Assembly: GCA_019136395.1 (NCBI GenBank)
Contig: JAGVUH010000664.1
Coordinates: 1 to 5,377 of the forward strand
DNA: 5,377 bases
Source of the DNA: Gammaproteobacteria bacterium
Lineage (GTDB): Bacteria > Pseudomonadota > Gammaproteobacteria > Chromatiales > Chromatiaceae
Direction of reading: 5' to 3'
Shown: one piece after another, positions 2 to 5,377 of the stretch
How positions within the stretch are numbered: position 1 is the stretch's first letter
How the letters are laid out: each line of letters starts with the position of its first letter
Translations under genes and position numbers: made by a program
Notes under the pieces: generated by a model
Database searches by the model: none
Told to the model about the DNA's origin: nothing
The model's input: the letters and a program-made list of their open reading frames with translations, nothing else

Positions 2-274
2 CCCCATGGGGTCCTGGCCATCGGTCTGCGCGCCCGAACCCTGGGCGACGCCCTGGTCAGCCTCTACCTGCTGCGCCCCGAGGAGGCGCGCGAGATCGCC
101 TGGGCCGGTAATCCAGAGAAACCCCTGGAGGCGACCCCGGACGGCCAGCGCCTGTCCCCGCGTAATTCCTTCGACAAGTGGGTGGAGGTCCGCCACGGCT
201 ACTCCCGGGCCTGGGATGAGGACAGTCTCTTCGCCGCCCGCCAGTTGCGGGAACAACTCATGACCTGGATCTAA
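2..274 (+). CDS. Bacteriophytochrome photosensory protein, C-terminal end of PHY domain (5' partial)
   Basis: The visible 90 codons start outside the window and end at TAA 272-274. They match the end of a phytochrome PHY domain. Seen: a GVLAIGL strand (residues 3-9), LRPEEAREIAWAGNPEKP (24-41) carrying the tongue W-x-G motif at 34-36, then the PRxSF motif as PRNSF (53-57, bases 158-172), followed by the F-x-x-W...W pattern and a helix ending LREQLMTWI. In known bacteriophytochromes the PRxSF arginine sits in the tongue that refolds on red/far-red conversion and contacts the GAF domain; the bilin pocket would lie upstream of the window. Oddity: canonical bacteriophytochromes continue from this helix into a histidine kinase or other output domain, but here the protein stops. 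It therefore appears to be a PAS-GAF-PHY photosensor without output, likely acting on the kinase encoded next. Family assignment is strong; chromophore binding cannot be judged from this fragment. Confidence 0.85.
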   Translation, partial: PHGVLAIGLRARTLGDALVSLYLLRPEEAREIAWAGNPEKPLEATPDGQRLSPRNSFDKWVEVRHGYSRAWDEDSLFAARQLREQLMTWI

Positions 275-373
275 CCAGATGGACATGAAAGGATTTCATC
301 GCCAGCACCACAAGGGCGCTCACCCCCTGGCTGGGGGCTACCATCGTCCTCCCGCTGTACCTTGACCCTCAGG
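275..373 (+). other. Short gap between phytochrome and hybrid kinase, open in the shared reading frame
   Basis: This stretch separates the phytochrome TAA from the kinase ATG. It has no stop in the frame shared by the two genes, but the conceptual peptide is rich in Pro, Ser and Gly and looks nothing like the helical linker that normally joins PHY to a kinase, so it reads as non-coding. I see no convincing -35/-10 pair and no hairpin followed by a T-run, so co-transcription of the two genes is likely. A 28-codon frame (279-365) lies inside but has no supporting signal. Confidence 0.6.
323..337 (+). repeat. Small G/C inverted repeat in the gap before the kinase
   Basis: Five C (323-327) and five G (333-337) flank a 5-base loop TGGCT. 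The stem could form a short RNA hairpin about 36 bases before the kinase ATG. No T-run follows, so it does not look like an intrinsic terminator. It might slow ribosomes or set relative expression of the two genes, or be chance in GC-rich DNA. Confidence 0.3.
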
Positions 374-374
374 A
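370..374 (+). promoter_or_regulatory. Possible Shine-Dalgarno (CAGGA) that bears on the kinase start
   Basis: CAGGA directly abuts and overlaps the ATG at 374, too close to serve it, but it sits 8 bases before an in-frame GTG at 383. The TTG at 362 has no purine-rich element upstream. The site therefore favours GTG 383 over ATG 374, while codon preference favours ATG. The choice changes the protein by three residues only. Confidence 0.35.
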
Positions 375-3490: not shown

Positions 3491-4508
3491 CAAGCAAAAG
3501 ATCCTGATCGTCGACGACGAGCCGGCGAACCTGAATCTGCTCCGGCAAATCCTCAAGAACGACTATGACCTGGCCTTCGCCAAGTCCGGGGCCGATGCCC
3601 TGGCCACCCTCCTCAAGCAGAAACCCGATCTGGTGCTCCTGGACGTGATGATGCCGGGCATGGACGGCTATAGCGTCTGCGAGCAGATCAAGGCGGACCC
3701 CCGGTGGCGCGATATCCCGGTAATCTTTTGCACCGCCATGACCGAGGAGGTCGACGAGGTCAAGGGCTTCAGCCTGGGGGCGGTGGACTACATCACCAAG
3801 CCGGTGCGGGCGACCGTCGCCCTGGCCCGGGTCAGGACCCACCTCGCCCTGAGTGACCAGAACCGCGCCTTCCAGGAGCGGATCGACCTGATCCATGCAG
3901 ACCTGCTGGACTCGCGTCTCCATGCCCTGCAGATGCTCGGGCGGGCGGCCGAGTTCAAGGACAACGAGACGGGCTTGCACGTCATCCGCATGTCCCACTT
4001 CACCCAACTCCTGGCCCGCGCCAGCGGCTGGAACGAGGAGGAGTGCCGCCTCATGTTCAATGCCGCGCCTATGCACGACATCGGCAAGATCGGCACCCCC
4101 GACCATATCCTGCTCAAGCCCGGGAAGCTGACCGCCGAGGAAATGGCGATCATCAAGCAGCACTGCGAGACCGGGGCCCGGATCATCGGCGAACACCAGG
4201 GTAAGTCGCGGCTGTTCGAGATGGCCCGCACCATCGCCCTGACCCACCACGAAAGGTGGGATGGCACGGGCTACCCGCGGGGCCTGGCCGGTGAGGAGAT
4301 CCCCATCGAGGGCCGGATCGCCGCCATCGCCGATGTCTTCGACGCCCTGAACTCCCCGCGCCCCTACAAGCAGCCCTGGCCCTTCGAGGATACGGTCGCT
4401 TATCTCCGTGACCAGGCCGGCCAGCATTTTGATCCGACCCTGGTCGCGCTCTTTCTGGACCATCTGCCCCAGGCACAGGAAGTGATGCGCCAATGGCAGG
4501 ACCGCTGA
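3483..4508 (+). CDS. Response regulator with HD-GYP c-di-GMP phosphodiesterase output (RpfG-like)
   Basis: 341 residues, a usual length for REC-HD-GYP proteins. REC 5-121: acidic pair D11/D12, phospho-acceptor D54 (LLDVMMPGMDG), T84 and K106. A helical linker (about 122-150) leads to HD-GYP 150-341. Seen: NETGLH (161-166), HDIGKIG (198-204), H227, HHERWDGTGYP (255-265) and D284. These supply E162, H166, H198, D199, K202, H227, H255, H256 and D284, the full set corresponding to trinuclear-metal HD-GYP enzymes, so the domain should be catalytically active. Known family role: hydrolysis of cyclic di-GMP to pGpG or GMP in the cytoplasm, controlled by REC phosphorylation. The start at 3483 is chosen because the REC fold begins a few residues later and it gives an 8-base overlap with the kinase. 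Likely phosphate donor: H892 of that kinase (inference). The downstream neighbour encodes the opposite activity. Confidence 0.95.
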   Translation: MNSKQKILIVDDEPANLNLLRQILKNDYDLAFAKSGADALATLLKQKPDLVLLDVMMPGMDGYSVCEQIKADPRWRDIPVIFCTAMTEEVDEVKGFSLGAVDYITKPVRATVALARVRTHLALSDQNRAFQERIDLIHADLLDSRLHALQMLGRAAEFKDNETGLHVIRMSHFTQLLARASGWNEEECRLMFNAAPMHDIGKIGTPDHILLKPGKLTAEEMAIIKQHCETGARIIGEHQGKSRLFEMARTIALTHHERWDGTGYPRGLAGEEIPIEGRIAAIADVFDALNSPRPYKQPWPFEDTVAYLRDQAGQHFDPTLVALFLDHLPQAQEVMRQWQDR

Positions 4509-4524
4509 GGCCAAACCAACCGAC

Positions 4525-5377
4525 ATGAATGGCAACACCCCCATCATCCTCGCCGTCGACGACAAGGTCGACAACCTGGATATTCTCACCAGTCTCCTCC
4601 AGGACTATGACGTGCGGGATGTCACCGACGCCGCCAGCGCCTGGCGGATCCTGGACCATTCCCCCGTCGACCTGATCCTGCTCGACATCATGATGCCGGA
4701 CATCGATGGCTTCGAACTCTGTCGTCAGTTCCAGGCTGACGAGCGCACTCGGGCCATCCCGGTCATCTTCATCTCCGCCATGAGCGACGAGACCGCCATC
4801 AGTCGCGCCTTCGAGGTCGGCGGCAAGGACTATGTCACCAAGCCCTTTCGCCCCATGGAACTGCTGGCCCGGGTGAAGACCCATCTGGAGCTGAAGTTCC
4901 TCATGCAGCGCTTGCATGACCTCGCCTACTTCGACGCCCTGACCGGCATCGCCAACCGCCGGCGCTTCTTTGATCTGGCGACGGCCCTGTTCGAGGCCCC
5001 GGGGGACTTGCAGGCGGTCATGCTCGACATCGACCATTTCAAGCAGGTGAACGATCGCCACGGCCACGCGGTGGGCGACCAGGTCCTGCGGCTGGTCGCC
5101 GACACCATCGGCGAGCAACTCCCCCCCGAGGCGGTCTTCGGCCGTCTGGGGGGGGAGGAATTCGCCATCCTGTTCCCCAGCGCCGATCCGGATGGCGTCC
5201 TGGCGGCCATGGACGGGATCCGTCAGGCGGTGGCTAATCTGGTCATCCCCCTGGAGGCGGGGACCCTGAGCTGCACCATCAGTTGCGGCCTGGCCTCCCG
5301 GACGCCGGATACCCGCAACATCGACGCCCTGCTGCACGACGCCGACCAGGCCCTGTATCAGGCCAAGGGCAGCGGGC
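4525..5377 (+). CDS. Response regulator with GGDEF diguanylate cyclase output (PleD/WspR-type), 3' partial
   Basis: Starts at ATG 4525, 16 bases after the HD-GYP stop, and stays open for 284 codons to the window edge; family comparison suggests only some 10-25 residues are missing (the final AKxxGRN segment is cut at AKGSG). REC 6-122: D12/D13, phospho-acceptor D54 (LLDIMMPDIDG), S84 in the usual Thr/Ser position, K106. GGDEF domain from about 131: FDALTGIANRR (136-146), metal ligand D168 in LDIDHFK, N176 and D185 for guanine binding, signature GGEEF (209-213), and TISCGLA (251-257). All catalytic positions are present, so it should make c-di-GMP from two GTP, probably after phosphorylation-driven dimerisation. 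Oddity: the inhibitory I-site RxxD expected just before GGEEF is absent, with P200 and A203 in those places, so classical product inhibition is not expected. Only a weak TGAGG (4506-4510) lies upstream, suggesting translation coupled to the preceding gene. Confidence 0.95.
   Translation, partial: MNGNTPIILAVDDKVDNLDILTSLLQDYDVRDVTDAASAWRILDHSPVDLILLDIMMPDIDGFELCRQFQADERTRAIPVIFISAMSDETAISRAFEVGGKDYVTKPFRPMELLARVKTHLELKFLMQRLHDLAYFDALTGIANRRRFFDLATALFEAPGDLQAVMLDIDHFKQVNDRHGHAVGDQVLRLVADTIGEQLPPEAVFGRLGGEEFAILFPSADPDGVLAAMDGIRQAVANLVIPLEAGTLSCTISCGLASRTPDTRNIDALLHDADQALYQAKGSG

Follow-up and report, generated by a model that had tools for sequence, protein, structure and literature searches.

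A conserved bacteriophytochrome, hybrid kinase and HD-GYP gene set in purple sulfur bacteria as a candidate accessory-photosensor phosphorelay, with a juxtaposed REC-GGDEF gene

This study reports a gene set, conserved in purple sulfur bacteria, that comprises a bacteriophytochrome gene, a hybrid histidine kinase gene and the gene of a response regulator with receiver (REC) and HD-GYP domains. The set was analyzed in contig JAGVUH010000664.1 of a Gammaproteobacteria bacterium of the Chromatiaceae (GenBank assembly GCA_019136395.1), of which positions 1 to 5,377, the whole stretch of 5,377 nucleotides, are referred to as the window. We propose with good, though not full, confidence that the set encodes an accessory-photosensor phosphorelay aimed at the HD-GYP protein, a predicted phosphodiesterase of cyclic di-GMP (c-di-GMP). 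The REC-GGDEF gene that follows in the window, coding for a predicted diguanylate cyclase, is a juxtaposed neighbour and lies outside the conserved set in the related loci examined.

Conservation of the three-gene set

As the initial annotation had claimed, four adjacent genes lie on the plus strand of the window: the 3′ end of the bacteriophytochrome gene (2-274, the last 90 amino acids (aa)), the hybrid kinase gene (374-3490, 1038 aa), the REC-HD-GYP gene (3483-4508, 341 aa) and the REC-GGDEF gene (4525-5377), whose 3′ end is cut off by the end of the window. Its further statement that both regulators keep the acceptor Asp54 and their catalytic motifs was also borne out, with HDIGK and HHERWDGTGYP in the HD-GYP protein and GGEEF in the cyclase. 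Hereafter the first three genes are called unit 1, and the REC-GGDEF gene unit 2.

The kinase served as the query for tracing unit 1, with a threshold of E 1e-150 and three candidates scored per genome. Relatives were found in 9 of the 210 genomes in the family of Lamprocystis purpurea (G003), and an order-level search, also of 210 genomes, returned the same nine; in the 36-genome order of G001, only G001 itself has one. A contig search gave 63 kinase-related loci, from which L001-L005 and the partial L040 were kept, while the rest were judged to be general kinase relatives after L008, L010 and L011 had been viewed. The comparison rests on 11 related loci (L001, L002, L003, L004, L005, L040, L095, L096, L097, L098 and L099). 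A clade phytochrome gene lies directly upstream of the kinase gene in all nine family genomes and in 10 of the 11 loci, the eleventh, L040, beginning inside the kinase. Directly downstream lies the HD-GYP gene, again in 10 of the 11 loci (not in L002), and it overlaps the kinase end in eight of the nine family genomes; in each of the 10 loci for which the overlap was computed, window included, it measures 4-26 bp, some values depending on the choice of start.

The three genes also occur together, down to a joint remnant. Full-length clade phytochromes (at least 48% identity) occur in exactly the same nine genomes, besides a broken copy in G124, which has no kinase beside it, and a fragment in G149. 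HD-GYP relatives of at least 64% identity occur in eight genomes, all within the nine and all at the operon. The fragment in G149 is part of an operon remnant (L171, 6371-7349), where it adjoins a frame that fuses kinase residues 1-63 to HD-GYP residues 253-341. Pairwise divergence follows the same pattern in all three proteins over eight loci (r 0.990, 0.960 and 0.955, values reached in 2, 5 and 5 of 5000 permutations). Among database entries, 13 of 48 kinase entries could be paired with a phytochrome entry by a longest contig of the same size, whereas, of 120 cyclase entries listed, the first 20 were compared in this way and none could be paired with a kinase or a phytochrome. In a quick tree with some long branches and 14 hand-chosen comparison proteins, the 11 operon HD-GYP proteins (window and 10 related) fall on one side of a branch and the 14 others on the opposite side (Shimodaira-Hasegawa-like approximate likelihood ratio test, SH-aLRT, 100). 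HD-GYP relatives of about 57% identity were considered as further members of the system and rejected, as the 12 loci fetched have no phytochrome match within three places of their HD-GYP gene and the tree separates them; their neighbours are other kinases, regulators and unrelated genes.

The part of the initial annotation that grouped photosensor, kinase and HD-GYP protein together is supported by the conserved order, the overlapping frames, the joint presence, the joint remnant and the matched divergence. The co-occurrence search that it had suggested for all four genes finds these three together, but the REC-GGDEF gene is not conserved beside them. All nine operon-bearing family genomes have genes for the photosynthetic reaction centre (PF00124), but none was found in G001, a metagenome-assembled genome, so that non-phototrophs may carry the set too. 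Cultured carriers of the set include Thiocystis violascens. The contig of L040, with the kinase end, an HD-GYP gene and a heme oxygenase gene, is labelled as a Bordetella parapertussis metagenome-assembled genome; its HD-GYP protein groups with that of L001, which suggests possible mislabelling or misbinning. A plasmid origin was considered and set aside, as a plasmid collection searched with the kinase at E 1e-100 gave no match.

In the window, a gap of 99 bp (275-373) separates the phytochrome and kinase genes, the kinase and HD-GYP frames share 8 bp, and 16 bp lie between the HD-GYP and GGDEF genes. A scan of the window for promoters of the sigma-70-like type and for terminator-like sites gave none of either, which is weak evidence, as shuffled sequences gave only 0.4 and 1.6, respectively. 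In 275-373, an inverted repeat (CCCCCTGGCTGGGGG) and an open frame of 27 aa (280-363) were spotted by eye; no terminator-like site was called there.

The output-less phytochrome and the proposed phosphorelay

The part of the photosensor visible in the window comprises the PHY tongue (WAG...PRNSF) and the last helix (Pfam PHY, PF00360, 78.7 bits), and its 90 residues are identical to the C-terminal 90 residues of a full-length database protein of 539 aa (P0183). Judged on P0183, the photosensor has the complete core of a bacteriophytochrome, namely PAS_2, GAF and PHY domains, the N-terminal chromophore Cys (LECERERL), PASDIP and a PRxSF tongue (PRNSF), and it ends after PHY. The N-terminal Cys is kept in all nine full-length operon phytochromes and PRxSF in 10 of 10 relatives; two operon phytochromes (L095 and L096) have PATDIP instead of PASDIP. 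The C-terminal histidine-kinase output of the classical BphP (NCBIfam NF041576) is missing, the relative in L005 reaching 188.1 bits versus a cut-off of 1040. Moreover, all 81 relatives at E 1e-90 are at most 539 aa long, 77 of them 480-540 aa, in a search with a query of 497 aa in which lengths up to 1.75 times the query (about 870 aa) were eligible and only the 7998 candidates sharing most words were scored. As judged from these domains and lengths, the phytochrome clade is unable to signal via a kinase domain of its own; having no output domain, it must therefore signal in trans, and the kinase encoded next to it is the presumed target. The PAS-GAF linker of three database proteins (P0183, P0181 and P0179; 539, 534 and 502 aa, respectively) contains an Ala/Gly-rich stretch of variable length.

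As to chromophore supply, a protein matching Pfam Heme_oxygenase is encoded at 4 of 11 loci, after the HD-GYP gene in L001, L040 and L096 and just upstream of the phytochrome gene in G155. By genome, a heme oxygenase match (PF01126) was found in 10 of 14, and in 8 of the 10 operon genomes of that search, some of the matches being weak.

The kinase carries PAS domains, HisKA (His459), HATPase_c, an internal REC domain (Asp748), a histidine phosphotransfer (Hpt) domain (His892) and a C-terminal tail of about 100 aa, as assigned by Pfam and by a motif alignment of 12 rows, that of L040 being partial. Its motifs SHEIR, DTGIG and GTGLG are intact, as are the acceptor residues of the internal REC (Asp) and of Hpt (His), and its start was placed at ATG 374 over TTG 362 after its relatives. 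The initial annotation had described a kinase ending in Hpt; the Hpt domain is indeed there, with a weak match of 26.3 bits versus a cut-off of 24.6, but the protein is a hybrid kinase with a REC domain of its own, and about 100 aa follow beyond Hpt. At 1684-1687 the window kinase is without a stretch of about 122 aa present in L003, L004 and L005 (in L005 a PAS_3 adjoining HisKA), the flanking homology being continuous; the shortfall is probably real, since a 98% identical protein (P0005) is also 1038 aa long. In the locus of Lamprocystis purpurea (L003, 10007-10190) an in-frame TAA lies near the start of the kinase frame, where a later start or a damaged gene is possible.

The third protein has Response_reg and HD_5 (123.9 bits) matches and the motifs of an HD-GYP phosphodiesterase, of which HD and GYP are kept in 11 of 11 aligned rows, and its best-scoring solved relative is 4mcw, a 'metal dependent phosphohydrolase'. 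It is not a NosR-family response regulator (NCBIfam NF053512), scoring 158.7 bits versus a cut-off of 400.

With the gene of an output-less sensor lying beside those of a kinase and a response regulator for c-di-GMP, unit 1 has the layout of an accessory-sensor system, and we propose the following course of events for it. First, the PAS-GAF-PHY bacteriophytochrome, with biliverdin as its likely chromophore, would sense red/far-red light and then, most simply through direct binding, influence the neighbouring hybrid kinase in trans. Upon this, phosphate could pass from His459 of the kinase to Asp748 of its internal REC, then to His892 of Hpt and finally to Asp54 of the REC-HD-GYP protein. Phosphorylation of Asp54 would then alter the putative c-di-GMP phosphodiesterase activity of the HD-GYP protein, and light may act on it with either sign. 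The downstream REC-GGDEF gene is probably co-transcribed in the source organism.

The juxtaposed cyclase gene and the alternative readings

The product of the REC-GGDEF gene matches Pfam GGDEF with 129.4 bits, and a 99% identical relative of the truncated protein (P0053) is 295 aa long. It has PPEA in place of RxxD at what we take to be the inhibitory position of PleD-type enzymes, and we presume it to be a cyclase without an inhibitory site (I-site). Downstream DNA can be seen in 10 of the related loci, and in none of them does a gene of this type follow unit 1; L097 is not counted, because only 68 bases are visible there after the HD-GYP gene. The best relatives of the cyclase in the 210 genomes, in G062 (89%), G061 (89%), G060 (77%) and G004 (67%), have a different neighbourhood. 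A FIST-domain gene lies directly upstream of the cyclase gene in G061 and G062 and downstream of it in G004; a hybrid kinase gene precedes the FIST gene in G062 and follows it in G004; and a gene for an Hpt protein comes after the cyclase gene in G061 and G060, the contig of G060 stopping just upstream of the cyclase. G060, G061 and G062 have no relative of the window kinase at E 1e-150, and G004 holds both units on separate contigs, unit 1 on C102 and the cyclase on C154. The FIST neighbours were considered as true NosP and rejected, as they score 48.6 and 55.9 bits versus the NCBIfam NosP cut-off of 450.

The change of neighbourhood can be located in the window. By blastn, homology to L003 and L005 ends at 4503, and homology to the cyclase loci begins at 4517 for L114 (G062), 4540 for G060 and 4546 for G061. 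This sets a synteny breakpoint at 4504-4524 (plus strand), which takes in the 16-bp gap (4509-4524). As homology switches at the HD-GYP end and the relatives of the cyclase lie elsewhere, the arrangement in the window appears to be derived, or is at least private to its lineage among the loci examined; an insertion of unit 1 or a move of unit 2 could have produced it.

The initial annotation had proposed opposing enzymes under one relay. As general wiring this finds no support, because the REC-GGDEF gene stands beside the set in the window only and its closest relatives stand beside a FIST gene; the puzzle of opposing enzymes belongs to a lineage-specific neighbourhood. For the source organism the case is different, as the 16-bp gap, which holds no terminator-like site, makes it likely that HD-GYP and cyclase share one transcript, and for this reason a branched relay could still operate there, in which one light-driven Hpt phosphorylates both regulators and a built-in asymmetry makes this useful. 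The acceptor Asp is kept in both REC domains, and the missing RxxD would be one possible asymmetry. However, besides the absence of the gene from all 10 loci and the FIST neighbours of its near relatives (G061, G062 and G004), two of these relatives (G061 and G060) have a separate Hpt gene, and the first helix of the cyclase REC, with helix limits as we presume them, differs by one residue from that of G061, by two from G062 and by five from G004. Being near-identical to G061 and G062, it shows no visible retuning to a new Hpt; over the whole receiver domain, 13 of 125 residues differ from G061 and 15 of 125 from G062. On this evidence we consider the branched relay unlikely. A shade less doubtful, and put forward tentatively, is that two accessory-sensor c-di-GMP pathways, the light pathway and a FIST-linked REC-GGDEF pathway, have merged in one transcription unit in this organism, a light-gated Hpt feeding phosphodiesterase and cyclase, and that the window has caught this state before the receiver surface of the cyclase changed.

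The accessory-photosensor phosphorelay itself has several observations standing against it. The family of Lamprocystis purpurea includes many genomes with other, mostly solitary phytochromes that are 34-40% identical (L158-L177 without L170 and L171), and in 15 of 18 such places chosen outside the clade a frame of 489-588 aa without an output domain is encoded. A trans kinase for output-less phytochromes in general was tried as an explanation and rejected, as motif and blast annotation shows no kinase relative on the same strand immediately after any of the 15; a missing output domain alone does not imply such wiring. Two draft genomes (G002 and G003) carry the phytochrome, but a search of them with PF01126 found no heme oxygenase. 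In the HD-GYP protein, the DNETG stretch reads DNDTG in L001 and L040 (Asp replacing Glu) and WDG reads WNG in L096 (Asn replacing Asp), given which HD-GYP activity may not be uniform across loci. In L002 (Halochromatium roseum), phytochrome and kinase genes are present but no HD-GYP gene adjoins them; the next gene after its kinase (L002, 6598-9021) is convergent and codes for a protein of 807 aa with a GGDEF match of 35% over 161 residues, and in L040 a 667-aa frame three genes past HD-GYP has a weak match to the GGDEF region (25%). Other GGDEF proteins can thus sit nearby, and neither of these two is the REC-GGDEF gene of the window. The phytochrome-kinase spacing in the window exceeds that of 9 of 10 related loci, and with so wide a gap a separate kinase promoter is possible. 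Finally, the matched divergence is also expected from plain vertical descent, and the PAS domains of the kinase could let another signal drive it.

The last point leads to a reading in which the PAS domains of the kinase respond to some other signal, leaving the phytochrome as a mere onlooker or as a modulator of another target; no domain of the phytochrome is known to dock on a kinase. We hold this to be improbable, even more so than the branched relay, because the kinase and the full-length clade phytochrome occur in the same nine genomes, side by side, with matched divergence. Least credible of all is an assembly error at the HD-GYP/GGDEF junction that placed the cyclase gene beside the operon, as a sharp breakpoint and an arrangement seen in no other locus could suggest, since both frames at the junction are intact and the spacing between them is that of an ordinary intergenic region, direct repeats of 14 bp or more are absent from 4300-4750, and the HD-GYP and cyclase genes are alike in G+C (0.642 and 0.651; third positions 0.880 and 0.880).

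Relation to known systems

In the open-licence literature of PubMed Central (PMC), subscription papers lying outside the scope, no description of this phytochrome-kinase-HD-GYP set was recognized. We see the phytochrome, which would act in trans, as a more interesting feature than the opposing enzymes, and the accessory-photosensor phosphorelay as a probable new variant of the accessory-sensor systems with a photoreceptor in the sensor slot. It gives the output-less phytochrome a testable role, in which a conventional hybrid kinase is equipped with a plug-in photosensor as a protein of its own, much as nitric oxide is sensed by H-NOX and FIST proteins, and it predicts that c-di-GMP breakdown is under light control in purple sulfur bacteria. 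It would also offer a case in which photosensor and kinase are separate proteins by nature. The window as a whole looks like a natural juxtaposition of two such units, which could be useful for understanding how the shuffling of response-regulator genes gives rise to crosstalk.

The design of the kinase and its target is that of RpfC-RpfG in Xanthomonas, where a hybrid kinase with REC and Hpt feeds a REC-HD-GYP phosphodiesterase; however, RpfC senses the diffusible signal factor (DSF) via its own membrane part, whereas the sensor of the window would be a separate photoreceptor. Among the nitric oxide systems, HnoB has an output that we take to be of the EAL class. The HnoX-HnoK-HnoB(-HnoD) system of Shewanella oneidensis, as far as it is outlined in the source, links nitric oxide sensing to c-di-GMP through a stand-alone sensor that acts on a kinase in trans, the kinase in turn phosphorylating a REC-bearing c-di-GMP phosphodiesterase (PMC8846402). 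The genes of the window suggest the same plan, with a phytochrome in place of the heme H-NOX sensor and an HD-GYP output (PMC8846402). NosP-NahK-NarR of Legionella, in the same outline, likewise comprises a solo sensor (FIST-FIST_C), a kinase and a REC-bearing c-di-GMP regulator, but with FIST and GGDEF-EAL where the window has phytochrome and HD-GYP (PMC8846402). The sensor of the window type has PAS_2-GAF-PHY instead of an H-NOX (HNOB) or FIST domain, and unit 1 would thus work like these accessory-sensor systems without being a member of them.

Phytochromes of related build or purpose have been described. Cenrod_2641/Cenrod_2642 of 'Ca. Symbiobacter mobilis' includes a phytochrome in which no output domain is evident and which seems to share an operon with heme oxygenase; this phytochrome is reported to be photoactive with biliverdin (PMC4053972). 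The passages describing that operon name no dedicated kinase or HD-GYP protein in it, and we set it apart from unit 1 by this description and not by sequence (PMC4053972). Fusions of phytochromes to GGDEF/EAL also tie red light to c-di-GMP turnover, in purple bacteria too, as outlined for BphG of Rhodobacter sphaeroides (PMC8846402), and a PYP-Phy-GGDEF/EAL fusion is mentioned for Thermochromatium tepidum (PMC12826048, PMC8877833). Unlike the set reported here, such fusions are, in the parts of these sources that deal with them, single proteins without a phosphorelay (PMC8846402, PMC12826048, PMC8877833). Some of the other output-less phytochromes in the family of Lamprocystis purpurea adjoin genes for GGDEF-EAL proteins (L162, L164 and L173) or for heme oxygenase (L162).

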